Shown here in pieces: positions 40,510 to 55,116 of a stretch of 64,000 bases of DNA (position 1 is its first letter; each line of letters starts with the position of its first letter). Under the pieces are notes generated by a model, which worked only from the letters and a program-made list of their open reading frames with translations, made no database searches and was not told the DNA's origin. Both the position numbers and the translations under genes were made by a program. The stretch comes from Psychrilyobacter atlanticus DSM 19335 (GTDB lineage Bacteria > Fusobacteriota > Fusobacteriia > Fusobacteriales > Fusobacteriaceae), in the NCBI RefSeq assembly GCF_000426625.1, contig NZ_KE384548.1:744001-808000 (forward strand), read 5' to 3'.

Positions 40510-40538
40510 AAAAAAACACCTGTAATAGGTGTTTTTTT
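40510..40538. terminator. Bidirectional terminator after nrdG
   Basis: AAAAAAACACCT pairs with AGGTGTTTTTTT around a 5-nt loop. It ends the minus-strand nrdG and separates it from dinB. Confidence 0.85.
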
Positions 40539-41034
40539 AAAATTCTAAGGTAATTATTTGATCATTCTCCAAACTTTCCCTTATGTCTATAATTCTTTGG
40601 TTACTGCTGCCTCTAAAATATAAATCTGGATCATAGTCAGCTTTTTGAAATTTACCATCGACCAATACGTCAATATAGTCCAAACATTCCCTCATGGTAG
40701 GATCTTTCAATAGAGTTTCAAAGGTATACCCGGTATAAGACCATATGTTTTTATGAGTTCTGGCTTTTATCTCCTTTAGAAACTCTAAAAGTTCTGCCGG
40801 ATTAAAAAATGGATCTCCTCCAGAGAGAGTTATCCCATCTAACATATAGTTAGAATTTATCTCTTCCACTATTTCATCCATATATTCCTCATCTAAGGCT
40901 CTTCCTATGTCACCCTTCCACGTATCATGGTTATGACACCCTTCACAGTAGTGGGTGCATCCAGAGAAGTATATGGAGTATCTAAATCCGAATCCATCGG
41001 AGATTGTTTCTTTAAATATTTTTATTATCTTCAA
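40537..41034 (-). CDS. nrdG: Anaerobic ribonucleoside-triphosphate reductase activating protein
   Basis: The 165-residue radical-SAM enzyme generates the glycyl radical on NrdD. The iron-sulfur cluster motif C-x3-C-x2-C is in S-G-C-T-H-Y-C-E-G-C-H-N near 25-36, and the SAM-contacting G-G-D-P-F is near 72. The start codon is TTG at 41034 with AAGGA 7 nt upstream. nrdG is usually just after nrdD; here a KAP NTPase gene and repeats separate them. Confidence 0.94.
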   Translation of the reverse strand: MKIIKIFKETISDGFGFRYSIYFSGCTHYCEGCHNHDTWKGDIGRALDEEYMDEIVEEINSNYMLDGITLSGGDPFFNPAELLEFLKEIKARTHKNIWSYTGYTFETLLKDPTMRECLDYIDVLVDGKFQKADYDPDLYFRGSSNQRIIDIRESLENDQIITLEF

Positions 41035-41120
41035 TTTTATTCCTTCTTTCTTCTTATTTTTGTCATAAAATTTATAAATTAACTTTTATAACATTTAGCG
41101 TTTTAGTCTCCTTAATTTCT

Positions 41121-41243
41121 GATACTTTCTCTTGAAAAAAAGTATCCAAAGTTCAAGACTGTATAAAAATTACTATTCCATAATCAAAGGAATTTGAAAG
41201 AATCGAAACTCGCTTCGCTCAAACAGTCGAATATCTTTCTAAA
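41121..41243. repeat. Inverted-repeat-rich intergenic segment between nrdG and the KAP gene
   Basis: GATACTT (41121-41127) pairs with AAGTATC (41140-41146), and CTTGAA (41131-41136) with TTCAAG (41152-41157); the two hairpins exclude one another. A further imperfect inverted repeat (GAAAGAATCGA with TCGAATATCTTTC) spans about 41191-41243 around the CTCGCTTCGCTC core. No gene is seen. It looks like a repeat-element remnant. Confidence 0.5.
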
Positions 41244-41292
41244 TCTCTTTTTCCTATTTCATTTGCATAATTTTTATAATGTCATTTCTTAG

Positions 41293-42675
41293 TTAAAAAT
41301 TATTTATAAATTCAATATGATCTTTAATTATAAAACGTTCACTATTGAAAAGCATATTCATCGGTAATCTATTTCCTCTAGTCATTAATCCATCTTTAAT
41401 TGTAAAATCAACAAATTCTATTTTTTTAACTCCATTACAGTTTTCATTTATCACTTTTAACATTTTTAATATTTCATTTTGAGATATTCTTTTTTCAAAA
41501 ATCAGCCATTTTAAACTTTTTTCAAAATTTTCAAAATTATTATTTTGAAGTGGATCGTTAAATCCTTTAGAAGTTGATGTATAACTTGAATACCTTGATA
41601 AAACTTTCGATTTACCGCTAACTAACTCTTTATAAAGTTCATTATATTTTTGATTCAGACAAATAAAATATCCATATACCATCCAATAAATATCAATTGA
41701 ATCACACATTTCATCTGTTCCTACTTTATGATATTCCAATTTAGATAGTGGTAATATTAGCTTAATTCTGTAAAATAACTTTTCTAAATCCCTTAAACTT
41801 ATATCTTCCATTTTTGCAAAATTACTTATAACTTTCCAAAAATGCTTGGTATTTTCCATATTCTCGTCTAAATTATGTTTTTCCATTAGATACTTTAAAT
41901 AATTTTCTTTACTTGGATTAGGTAGCGAATAGTCTAAATCTATAAATCTCCTCAAATAACCTTCTGAATCCATTCCGCTTCCATAAATTGTAGATACAGA
42001 ATGAGATAGTTGCTCTTTGTCTAAAGATAAAACATATATATAATCATCTACTCCAAATAAATGCTTTATCTTCTCTAAGGTTTCAATGGCGTAGTCAGGT
42101 CTGCACCTATCCAATTCGTCTATAAAGAAAATAACTTTTTCTACTCCGAGTTTTTCTTTAATCTTAGTTAGATCTTCTTTTATTCTTTCTTTTAAATCCT
42201 TATACTCTTTATAATTATTAAAAAGACCTCTTTTTTTCGTCCCATCTAGCTCCTTATAGAGTTCTTTTGGATTAATTATTCCTAGAGTCATAAAATTAAC
42301 AACACTGCTTGCAATATTCCCTGTAACTTTTTTTAAATCTTCTTTATCTACATCCTTATTGGAATTATCTAAATATTTATCTAATTCTCCAATCAACGAT
42401 AAAAGAACATTTCCATAAAAATCATTTTCCCAAGCATTAAAGTGGATTGTAAAAATCTTATCTGATTTTTCTAACTCTAGTTTTTTCTGCCACATCTTAA
42501 TAAAAGTAGTCTTTCCAGTACCCCAAGGTGAATCTATTCCGAGAACAAAACTTCCCTTCCCCCCTAGATTTTCAATAATCTTAGTCAAATTATCTGCTAT
42601 GGGTTCCCTTTCAAGTTTACAGTTTTTAAATAAATATTCCATATCATCTGATTTCTCAAGTATTAGATTAGACAT
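41293..42675 (-). CDS. KAP-family P-loop NTPase
   Basis: The 460-residue STAND-like NTPase has Walker A D-S-P-W-G-T-G-K-T-T at 48-57 and the KAP-typical F-N-A-W-E-N-D near 79-85. Walker B is V-I-F-F-I-D-E-L-D-R at 181-190, with a downstream Y-L-R-R-F-I-D-L-D-Y-S-L-P. Many KAP proteins have membrane helices inserted in the NTPase domain; here only one weakly hydrophobic stretch (about 120-135) is seen. The family includes the F-plasmid phage-exclusion protein PifA, so a defence role is possible but unproven. It is transcribed with nrdD and nrdG yet looks like an insertion between them. Confidence 0.88.
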   Translation of the reverse strand: MSNLILEKSDDMEYLFKNCKLEREPIADNLTKIIENLGGKGSFVLGIDSPWGTGKTTFIKMWQKKLELEKSDKIFTIHFNAWENDFYGNVLLSLIGELDKYLDNSNKDVDKEDLKKVTGNIASSVVNFMTLGIINPKELYKELDGTKKRGLFNNYKEYKDLKERIKEDLTKIKEKLGVEKVIFFIDELDRCRPDYAIETLEKIKHLFGVDDYIYVLSLDKEQLSHSVSTIYGSGMDSEGYLRRFIDLDYSLPNPSKENYLKYLMEKHNLDENMENTKHFWKVISNFAKMEDISLRDLEKLFYRIKLILPLSKLEYHKVGTDEMCDSIDIYWMVYGYFICLNQKYNELYKELVSGKSKVLSRYSSYTSTSKGFNDPLQNNNFENFEKSLKWLIFEKRISQNEILKMLKVINENCNGVKKIEFVDFTIKDGLMTRGNRLPMNMLFNSERFIIKDHIEFINNF

Positions 42676-42701
42676 TAAATCACCCCTATAGTCTAAACTA
42701 A

Positions 42702-42726
42702 AGAGGGAATTATCAAAATTCCCTCT
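42702..42726 (-). terminator. Hairpin between nrdD and the KAP gene
   Basis: A 10-bp stem (42702-42711 with 42717-42726) and 5-nt loop are followed on the minus strand by a weak T-rich TTTAGTTTAG. It may be a weak terminator or part of the neighbouring repeat. Confidence 0.45.
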
Positions 42727-42741
42727 CTACAATAAATATTT

Positions 42742-42793
42742 TACCTCTTCCACTATCCCTTCTCCTAATCTAGGAGAAGGCTAGGATGAGGTC
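42742..42793. repeat. Palindromic dispersed repeat downstream of nrdD (copy 2)
   Basis: The central 10-bp stem CCTTCTCCTA/TAGGAGAAGG (42758-42780) is flanked by ACCTCTTCC on one side and GGATGAGGTC on the other. The flanks match the ends of the element at 20462-20568 read in reverse complement. It is non-coding. Confidence 0.6.
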
Positions 42794-42802
42794 TAGGTTT
42801 TT

Positions 42803-45148
42803 CTAGTTATGTTTTACTCTATCTTGCTCTTCAGCTTGCTTATATGAGTTCCAACCATCTAAATCTCCAGTTAAGTAACCTGTGATTCTTCTAGTTCTAG
42901 ATATTTCCTTACTTCCACATACAGGACAAGTACACTCTATTATCCCCTTGTGTCCACATAATCTACATCTGTCTACAGGATGGTTGATAGATCCATATCC
43001 AATTCCCTCTTTTTGCATAGCTTTTACGATTTTCATAATAGCCATTACATTCTTTTTAGCTTCTCCATCTAACTCTACATAAGTGATATGTCCACCACGA
43101 GTAAGTTCATGGAATGGAGCTTCTCTCTTTATTTTTTCGATAGAAGAGATGTTTTCTTTAACATCTACATGGAATGAATTGATATAATAATCTCTGTCAT
43201 TTACCCCTTCAATAACTCCAAACTTCTCACAATCTATCTTTGTAAATCTTCCAGATAACCCTTCAGCAGGAGTTGCTAATGCTGAGAAGTTTAAGTTGTG
43301 TTCCTTACTCTTTTCTGTAGCAATATCCTTCATATCCGATACAGCCTTATACAGCGTGTTATACGCCTTATCGTTCTTTCCATGACCTTCACCATAGAGA
43401 GCCATCATTGCGTTATGCCCACCGATAAATCCTATACCTAGTGTTCCTGAGGCAAATGTATCTCTAACGTCATCGTTAGGACCTAAGTTTTGCCCTCCAT
43501 CCCAAATACCATTTTCCATCATAAATGGAAATTGTCTAGCTACTGCTGACCCTTGGAATTCAAATCTGTCTTTTAATTGAGACGCTACAAAGTAAGACAT
43601 CTCCTTTACATTTTCATGGAATAACTCTACCGCTAGTGTTTCTACTTCTGATGAGTCTGCTCCTAATCTTTCTATAGCTTCCTTTCTAGCTTTAATAGCT
43701 AGTCTAGGCATGTTGATAGATGTAAATGATACATTTCCACGACCAATAGAAGTTTTGTCTCCTCTGACATTTTCAAATACTCTCGTTCTACATCCCATTG
43801 TAGCTACTTCATATAAGTATCTATCAGGGTCATTTATATCCCACTTCTCATGGAAGTTAAATGGTGTATCTAAGAATACAAAGTTAGGGAATAATCTCTT
43901 TGAAGTAACTTCACATGCTCTGATAAAAAGATCAAAGTTAGGAGTTTCAAATTCTAATTCTCCCTTAGATGCTTTTGCCCAGTTATTTACAGCTAATTCA
44001 AAGTCTTTTTCAGAGAAAGATATTCCTGTCTTCACTTTGAATATTTGAATAGGGAATACAGGTGTCTCAGAATCTCCTAACCCCTCTTCAGTAGCTTTGA
44101 ATAGTTCCTCTATAACCATTCTACCCTCAGGAGAGAAATCAGTACCATAGTTGATAGAACTAAAGACTACCTGGTTTCCACCTCTAGAATGCATTGTGTT
44201 TAAGTTATGGATAAATCCTTCCATAGCTTGATGTGTTTCATTCTTCGTATCTGCATAGGCAATTTTAATTAATTTCTCGACAGTTTTCATGTCCATACCT
44301 AATTTTTCAGATAGTGTATTTTTAATCTCCTCACTGACAGATATAGTAGTGATAGAGTTATTTATAATCTCTTTTAATTCCTTGTTTTTATTCTCAATAT
44401 AGTCTGCATCTAAAAATGTCAATGATCTATATCTAAGATGTCTTCTAAATGATTTCAATACTCCTGGAGCCATGAAAAAGTCAAATGCCGGTATAGCTTG
44501 TCCTCCATGCTGCTCGTTTTGGTTTGTTTGAAATATTATAGTTGCTAGTGTAGCATATGTTGAGATAGATTTAGGTTCACGGATCTTTCCATGTTTTGAC
44601 TTAAATCCTTTTGAAAATAATTTTTTCAAATCATACTGCACACACGTAGAAGTTTTTGTAGGATAGTAATCTAAATCATGGATATGAATATCCCCGGCCA
44701 TATGAGCACTTGAATATTCAGGATTTAATAGATATTTATGTGTATAATCCTTTGTTGTTTCACTTGCAAATGTCATCATTTGACCAGCAGGAGTATCTCC
44801 AGCCATATTTGCATTTTCATTATTTATATTATTTTTTTCCACAGTAACTATACCGTCGAAAGATTTTTTTATAGTTGTTCTCTTGTGTCTCTCTATATTC
44901 CTCATATCTCTATACAAGATATAGTTTTTAGCCATATCTGGATATGTTTTCATCAATTCTTTTTCTACAAGATCTTGTATCTCTTCTACCTTTAAATCTT
45001 TATTTAAATCTACGATTTTATTTACAACTTCCAATGCAAATTTTGTGCTAACATCCTCTTTAGAAGCAATAGCCGCCTTGTTTATAGCACAAACTATCTT
45101 ATTTGCATCAAAGTTAACTTTTTGTCCATCTCTCTTAACTACTTTCAT
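42803..45148 (-). CDS. nrdD: Anaerobic ribonucleoside-triphosphate reductase (class III)
   Basis: The 781-residue glycyl-radical enzyme makes dNTPs without oxygen. An N-terminal ATP-cone (about 1-90, V-V-K-R-D-G) gives allosteric control. The zinc site is C-R-L-C-G...C-T-C-P-V-C-G near the C-terminus. The radical Gly lies in R-R-I-T-G-Y-L-T-G close to the end. The ATG at 45148 is preferred, behind GGAGTGGTG; an in-frame start at 45163 lacks a site. Activation needs NrdG, encoded 1.8 kb downstream. Confidence 0.96.
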   Translation of the reverse strand: MKVVKRDGQKVNFDANKIVCAINKAAIASKEDVSTKFALEVVNKIVDLNKDLKVEEIQDLVEKELMKTYPDMAKNYILYRDMRNIERHKRTTIKKSFDGIVTVEKNNINNENANMAGDTPAGQMMTFASETTKDYTHKYLLNPEYSSAHMAGDIHIHDLDYYPTKTSTCVQYDLKKLFSKGFKSKHGKIREPKSISTYATLATIIFQTNQNEQHGGQAIPAFDFFMAPGVLKSFRRHLRYRSLTFLDADYIENKNKELKEIINNSITTISVSEEIKNTLSEKLGMDMKTVEKLIKIAYADTKNETHQAMEGFIHNLNTMHSRGGNQVVFSSINYGTDFSPEGRMVIEELFKATEEGLGDSETPVFPIQIFKVKTGISFSEKDFELAVNNWAKASKGELEFETPNFDLFIRACEVTSKRLFPNFVFLDTPFNFHEKWDINDPDRYLYEVATMGCRTRVFENVRGDKTSIGRGNVSFTSINMPRLAIKARKEAIERLGADSSEVETLAVELFHENVKEMSYFVASQLKDRFEFQGSAVARQFPFMMENGIWDGGQNLGPNDDVRDTFASGTLGIGFIGGHNAMMALYGEGHGKNDKAYNTLYKAVSDMKDIATEKSKEHNLNFSALATPAEGLSGRFTKIDCEKFGVIEGVNDRDYYINSFHVDVKENISSIEKIKREAPFHELTRGGHITYVELDGEAKKNVMAIMKIVKAMQKEGIGYGSINHPVDRCRLCGHKGIIECTCPVCGSKEISRTRRITGYLTGDLDGWNSYKQAEEQDRVKHN

Positions 45149-45187
45149 CAAACACCACTCCACTATATTTAGTTGATTCCGATAAAA

Positions 45188-54081: not shown

Positions 54082-55116
54082 TTATTTTTTTGGGGCTGTA
54101 GTACTTGTCTCAGTACTAAATCTTTCCACTAATCTTATTCTATTTTTTCCTGCCCAATCAAAATCATATTTAATTAATTTTGTATTTTTTATTGGGTCTG
54201 CTTCTGATGGCGGCATTGCATCTTTATTAGTTAAAAATTGGAACGATCCTACTGTTTGTCCCATTTCTTGAACTCTTTTAGTTAATACCCAGTCAATGAA
54301 TTTTTTAGCTGTTTCTTGATCTGGTCCATTTTTCAATAGTGCCACTCCACCAATTTCGTATCCTGTTCCTTCAGACGGTGCAGAGATTACGATATCTTTA
54401 TATCCTTCTTTTTTATATTTTATTGCGTCATGTAAGAATGTTATTCCAATTGTTGTTTCCCCTTGTCCTGCCATTCTTCCTGGAGCAGTACCAGATTTAG
54501 TGTATTGTCTAACCTGCCCGTTAAATTTTTTCAAATATTCCATAGCTTCATCTTCACCCATAAGCTGAACTAGAGTAGCTAACATTGTATAAGCAGTTCC
54601 TGATGACCCAGGATGAGCTACTACGATCTCTCCCTTATACTCAGGTTTTAATAGATCTGCCCATGATGTAGGCATTTTTAATCCTTTTTCATCTAACATT
54701 TGCTGGTTTCCAACAAATCCTAAATATCCTACATATATTCCTGTCCAGTATCCTTCAGGTCCTTTTAATCCCTCTTTAATATTAGCCGCTTCAGGAGACA
54801 TATATGGTTCGATTAAATCAGCTTCCTTTGCTGCTACAAACGCATCTAAAGGTCCGCCGTACCATACAGACGCAGACATGTTATTTCTTTCTGCTTTTAA
54901 TCTAGCCAAAACTTCTCCACTACTCATTCTTACAAAATTTGTCTCAATTCCTGTCTCTTTTTCAAATTCCTTAGCAACCATTGCTGCATGATCTTCCTGT
55001 AATCCTGCGTAGAATGTCAAAGTTTGACCTGTTTTTTCAGCTGTAACTTCAGATTCTTTCTTTCCACAAGATATAACGAAGAGTAAAACTGATAATAATA
55101 ATAATATTTTTTTCAT
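54082..55116 (-). CDS. Fe3+-type ABC substrate-binding lipoprotein
   Basis: The 344-residue lipoprotein has acylated Cys17 (F-V-I-S-C) and a class II periplasmic-binding fold: L-T-F-Y-A-G-L-Q-E-D-H near 33, then T-G-I-E-T-N-F-V-R-M-S-S-G-E, and a late W-V-L-T-K. It resembles FbpA/AfuA-type proteins that bind ferric iron, but related proteins bind sugar phosphates or aminoethylphosphonate, so the ligand is open. The ATG at 55116 has no adjacent ribosome site; a perfect one lies beyond a hairpin. Confidence 0.87.
   Translation of the reverse strand: MKKILLLLSVLLFVISCGKKESEVTAEKTGQTLTFYAGLQEDHAAMVAKEFEKETGIETNFVRMSSGEVLARLKAERNNMSASVWYGGPLDAFVAAKEADLIEPYMSPEAANIKEGLKGPEGYWTGIYVGYLGFVGNQQMLDEKGLKMPTSWADLLKPEYKGEIVVAHPGSSGTAYTMLATLVQLMGEDEAMEYLKKFNGQVRQYTKSGTAPGRMAGQGETTIGITFLHDAIKYKKEGYKDIVISAPSEGTGYEIGGVALLKNGPDQETAKKFIDWVLTKRVQEMGQTVGSFQFLTNKDAMPPSEADPIKNTKLIKYDFDWAGKNRIRLVERFSTETSTTAPKK

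Follow-up and report, generated by a model that had tools for sequence, protein, structure and literature searches.

The question raised by this locus is why a gene for a KAP-family P-loop ATPase lies between nrdD and nrdG, which encode the anaerobic ribonucleoside-triphosphate reductase and its activating protein. The 64-kb stretch of DNA that was analyzed (hereafter the window) comes from an organism placed in the Fusobacteriaceae, near Ilyobacter; its genome is referred to below as G000. The first-pass annotation of the window had regarded the gene as an insertion and had offered two readings of it, as an accessory defense gene or as a novel partner of the reductase. From sequence comparison we consider it likely that KAP is an accessory, single-gene candidate ATPase for anti-phage defense or superinfection exclusion, of the class PDC-S20, carried in a variable nrdD-nrdG cargo slot (Table 1). 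KAP would be a further member of an already described candidate family, with a putative activity.

Table 1. Features of the nrdD-nrdG junction (positions in the window)
Feature	Position	Strand	Remark
nrdG, reductase-activating radical-SAM protein	40537..41034	-	TIGR02491, 178.6 bits (cut-off, 126.1)
nrdG leader containing AAATAAGAAGAAAGAAGGAATAA	41035..41061	-	also in KAP-bearing G002, and in G005
Dispersed hairpin repeat between KAP and nrdG	about 41116..41289	.	13 more matches in genome; G005 likewise has it upstream of nrdG
KAP-family P-loop ATPase gene, intact, PDC-S20-like	41293..42675	-	460 aa
Hypervariable C-terminal region, residues 311-440	41356..41745	-	29% identical to G002 ortholog
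Walker B FFIDELD, residues 183-189, inside signature IDELDRCRP	42109..42129	-	homologue alignments
Walker A GTGKTT, residues 52-57	42505..42522	-	homologue alignments
Hairpin 3' of nrdD, 13-bp stem, no canonical U-tract	42699..42729	-	kept in genus also without inserted gene
Palindrome CCTTCTCCTAATCTAGGAGAAGG	42758..42780	.	one other copy in genome
nrdD, anaerobic ribonucleoside-triphosphate reductase	42803..45163	-	NF005497, 1042.8 bits (cut-off, 764)

Family, predicted fold, and sequence conservation of the KAP ATPase

The first-pass annotation had placed a KAP NTPase gene between nrdD and nrdG, about 1.8 kb apart, and this identification stands: the gap measures 1.77 kb, KAP is on the same strand as its neighbors, and both neighbors are equivalog-grade assignments by NCBIfam. 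The KAP protein matches PF07693 at 140.3 bits (E = 9.9e-41), above the gathering cut-off of 20, and together with the Walker A and Walker B motifs this score places it in the KAP family. Within Walker A, G52, G54, and K55 are invariant among 22 aligned homologues, and GTGKTT and FFIDELDRCRP are kept across the homologue alignments. The PADLOC model for PDC-S20 (PDLC04959) is matched over nearly its full length (E = 1.8e-97; residues 13 to 406 of 460 on model positions 13 to 411 of 464), and the setting is likewise that of a single gene, KAP being the sole insert at nrdD-nrdG, with no partner gene. Length and single-gene organization are thus shared with PDC-S20, which is itself only a candidate class of single-gene phage defense; the window's KAP differs by sitting inside a housekeeping operon. 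We found no paper that names PDC-S20 and none that joins nrdD or nrdG with a defense hotspot.

Typically, although not universally, KAP family NTPases carry transmembrane segments within the NTPase domain. The earlier impression that this protein lacks obvious membrane helices is in line with its Kyte-Doolittle profile, in which the highest 19-residue mean is 1.16 (residues 117 to 135); hydropathy therefore argues against a membrane helix, and the protein is predicted to be soluble. The GC content of the gene (26.7%, compared to 34.4% for nrdD and 32.7% for the window) is a weak pointer to its origin, because many kinds of acquired genes fit such a value. A genome_contigs scan returned three distant relatives only.

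Several named defense systems share the KAP domain with this protein. Tmn, a KAP NTPase of E. coli, defends against several phages and has two transmembrane domains (PMC11846954), whereas the window's KAP has no hydropathy-supported helix and gave no match to Tmn in the PADLOC search. PifA of the F plasmid is matched over KAP residues 25 to 256 (PADLOC E = 1e-28), but the match spans only model positions 23 to 258 of 720, and the remainder of PifA is absent from the window's KAP. QatA, the KAP ATPase of an anti-phage system, gives a partial match of 68.8 bits against an NCBIfam cut-off of 600; no qatB, qatC, or qatD lies beside KAP, and the flanking 64 kb are collinear with the sister species G007.

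A sequence search of solved structures returned nothing useful for KAP. In an AlphaFold2 model built from 22 sequences (mean pLDDT, 72.5), residues 20 to 130 and 150 to 310 are good and residues 358 to 437 poor. The best PDB match to the model is RdrA of RADAR (Foldseek E = 3e-6), which VIA-align superposes on model residues 1 to 360 with a Z score of 19.6 (312 residues; RMSD, 4.2 Å; 16% identity), followed by archaeal ORC2/Cdc6 (Z = 14.8). RdrA, an AAA+ ATPase, is a heptamer (PMC9994260), and by analogy KAP may assemble into a ring as well. The likeness to this nearest solved structure is one of shared fold, not of family membership: KAP is about half the length of RdrA, and its adjacent genes are nrdD and nrdG, with no rdrB adenosine deaminase beside it.

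Conservation is distributed very unevenly along the protein. Compared with its ortholog in the congener G002, KAP is 86% identical over residues 166 to 310, and far less so over the C-terminal region that follows (Table 1), which is also its least conserved part among the 22 homologues. The ratio ω between these two orthologs is 0.15 (0.09 to 0.22) for residues 1 to 310 and 1.05 (0.64 to 1.62) for residues 311 to 460; both values come from a single ortholog pair with a weak C-terminal alignment (34% identity) and were unchanged under three alignment settings. By this measure purifying selection acts on the ATPase core, and the C terminus evolves almost freely. Since the interval for the C terminus includes 1, relaxed constraint could account for this value equally well. 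The pattern fits a motor joined to a fast-changing recognition or effector part and suggests which part of the protein could recognize phage or act against it. A swapped C-terminal domain was ruled out, as the C termini of the two orthologs still align (34%; E = 8e-20).

Occupants and age of the nrdD-nrdG slot

The premise that nrdD and nrdG are normally adjacent held in a survey of 50 related genomes of the order with both genes in tandem: the median gap is 57.5 bp, with 41 genomes having a gap of no more than 160 bp and 43 a gap below 300 bp. Gaps of more than 1.4 kb occur in four genomes (G000, its congeners G002 and G003, and G011 of another genus), which makes nrdD-KAP-nrdG an uncommon order and not the ancestral state. 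An ancient operon with this order conserved across the family was looked for in these 50 genomes and not found, so that this explanation is rejected.

Intact nrdDG with no gene between them is found at this site in two close relatives. In the sister species G007, whose NrdD and NrdG are 98% and 96% identical to those of G000, the gap is 0.3 kb; gene order across the 64-kb window is identical in the two species, G000 simply having KAP in addition. The site is likewise empty in G006 (0.2 kb). Other relatives carry various genes there. G002 has a DUF559 gene and then a KAP gene whose product is 63% identical to that of G000. G003 has DUF559 and then a run of short frames. Two of the frames match consecutive stretches of Abi_alpha (PF14337; PADLOC PDC-S47); we read these as a broken gene, with an assembly error possible because the assembly is 62% complete. 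In G011 the site holds genes for two unknown proteins (230 and 247 aa) and a membrane transporter, and in Ilyobacter genomes one small hypothetical gene. Because close relatives have either nothing or other cargo at the site, we regard the junction, on this comparative evidence, as a variable slot and KAP as swappable accessory cargo, not as part of the reductase enzyme. Filled and empty alleles in species with 98% identical NrdD offer a clean natural experiment for a candidate defense family, and the locus shows that suspected defense genes can be housed in a small slot of a housekeeping operon, outside classical islands.

The DUF559 genes at this site in two species (L055:5741-6115 and L056:6340-6699) show a pS of 0.26, compared to 0.41 for their nrdD, a difference that suggests transfer of DUF559 between the two. 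In Ilyobacter polytropus DSM 2926 (G031), nrdDG lies on the 0.96-Mb megaplasmid pILYOP01, at 882099 (G031:C2). An apparent solute-binding protein gene beside its ABC permease and ATPase (window positions 54082 to 55116) is unmatched in G007, where the gap is 185 bp, and G007 has an extra ~10.8 kb between window positions 2893 and 3082 that includes a gene for a 1,485-aa autotransporter-like protein (L156:5602-10059).

Between G000 and G002, the pS of KAP (0.53) falls within the range of neighboring core genes (0.43 to 0.59), and its pN is 0.23, compared to 0.027 to 0.108 for the neighbors. The value of pS suggests that the common ancestor of G000 and G002 already had KAP at the site. Its absence from G007, a nearer relative of G000 (dS of 0.23 to 0.47) than G002 (0.63 to 1.15), would then reflect loss or replacement. 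As a check on saturation, pS was 0.80 to 0.84 for nrdD against other genera, with divergence computed from the true start codon of nrdD, and 0.74 for KAP residues 166 to 310 against the homologue in G049. The insertion thus seems to be old in the genus, predating the split of G000 and G002; the same pS comparison disfavors a recent insertion in this species. Alternatively, a KAP allele could have passed between species at about the time of that split.

Hairpins, repeats, and expression

Palindromic repeats had been noted at both edges of the KAP gene. Their presence was confirmed, but not their role as insertion borders. On the nrdD side, the hairpin GAGGGAATT-TTGAT-AATTCCCTC follows nrdD in all five congeners examined, both empty-site species included, and as judged from this conservation it is a 3' element of nrdD. 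The nrdG-side repeat is dispersed (copy numbers in the G000 genome, given in Table 1, are from sequence searches). No matching inverted or direct repeats were found at both ends of the KAP insert, and a transposon or integron cassette ended by palindromes was rejected: the edge repeats are unrelated, and the nrdD hairpin also stands at empty sites.

The leader of nrdG is of one type in G000, G002, and G005 and of others in the empty-site species. G005 has the nrdG-side repeat and leader as in G000, and its contig ends there. Exchange of whole intergenic alleles through conserved flanks fits these repeat and leader data best, and cargo would probably come and go by homologous exchange in the conserved genes on either side. 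In some species dispersed repeats beside the cassettes may serve instead, and palindromes acting as transposon ends would have no part in it. A dispersed repeat of ~90 bp (L055:5598-5712 and other copies) has 22 matches in G002, 19 in G005, and 8 in G000. It flanks and separates the nrdD-nrdG cargo genes in G002 and G003; as this arrangement is absent in G000, exchange driven by repeats is at most a possibility for the window.

The terminator scan did not list the nrdD hairpin, because it lacks a U-tract, nor did the scan for promoter-like sites list any in the short stretch between this hairpin and the KAP start codon. With neither a U-tract terminator nor a promoter-like site of its own, KAP is probably transcribed, and so expressed, by read-through from nrdD.

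Putative role in phage exclusion and competing explanations

Among IMG/VR viral contigs, 24 loci were found in which a gene for a KAP protein of the same type (~465 aa) stands alone, with no link to nrdDG, and one homologue adjoins an S24 repressor in the record of a prophage hosted by Helicobacter, where terL and capsid genes are also present. In G049, AbiH is the second gene downstream of the KAP homologue, and the homologue in L108 lies beside a type III restriction-modification pair and an HD protein. This company of prophages and known defense genes, to which a second KAP of G000 near Thoeris genes (see below) can be added, supports a defense role, as does the presence of Abi-alpha, a suspected (broken) defense gene, at the same site in G003. 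Together with the match to PDC-S20 and the empty or differently filled sites, it favors the accessory defense gene over the reductase partner among the two readings of the first-pass annotation. We propose that the N-terminal AAA+/KAP domain (residues about 20 to 310) assembles and hydrolyzes ATP in the manner of RdrA, that the fast-evolving C-terminal part recognizes a phage trigger or carries an effector, and that activation halts the growth of phage, possibly at the expense of the host cell.

The finding of homologues as single genes on viral contigs and next to a prophage repressor is also what one would expect if KAP were a prophage-type moron left after phage or plasmid exchange, once used for superinfection exclusion and now retained or drifting. 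Superinfection immunity has been proposed as the role of KAP morons in Campylobacter prophages (PMC3995785), a published hypothesis that lends itself to such an origin. We nevertheless consider it rather unlikely here: the ω of the core in its chromosomal setting indicates purifying selection, so that KAP is not simply drifting, and its surroundings in the 64-kb window are free of phage genes. A soluble ATPase that serves housekeeping or the stress response and has nothing to do with phage, in a role such as protein or nucleic-acid remodeling, would accord with an AAA+ fold that is also close to ORC/Cdc6, and the defense role is itself a prediction. Such a role is decidedly unlikely given the patchy presence of KAP, with matches in 19 of 149 relatives' genomes, its fast-evolving C terminus, and the defense-gene neighborhoods of its homologues.

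We consider it very improbable that KAP regulates the anaerobic reductase or acts as its partner, and stays in the operon because it uses ATP to modulate NrdD or NrdG. KAP is tightly packed on the strand of nrdD and nrdG, the hairpin without a U-tract allows co-transcription, and synonymous divergence places the linkage before the separation of G000 and G002, but only position speaks for a role in the reductase. Most tandem nrdD-nrdG gaps (those below 300 bp) are too short to hold a KAP gene, G007 does without one despite its nearly identical NrdD, other genes fill the same site elsewhere, and homologues in viral contigs stand apart from nrdDG.

An extension of the preferred reading, that of an accessory defense ATPase, is speculative and on the whole unlikely. 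The junction in this genus, Ilyobacter, and another genus would be a dedicated slot in which homologous exchange swaps single-gene defense cassettes, and KAP an RdrA-like, partnerless ring with a diversifying C-terminal sensor, co-expressed with the enzyme for anaerobic dNTP synthesis. If true, defense would be coupled to a metabolic state that phage replication needs.

G000 encodes a second, divergent KAP of 508 aa (L063:4547-6073; PADLOC PDC-S20, E = 1.5e-63), with Thoeris ThsA about 2 kb and ThsB 3.6 kb after it. The stretch L063:4547-10366 (G000:C3, about 818546-824365), just past the end of the window, comprises this second KAP, a nuclease-like gene, a DUF4062-like gene, ThsA of the macro-domain type, and ThsB (the nuclease-like and DUF4062-like genes assigned by eye) and is likely a Thoeris defense island.
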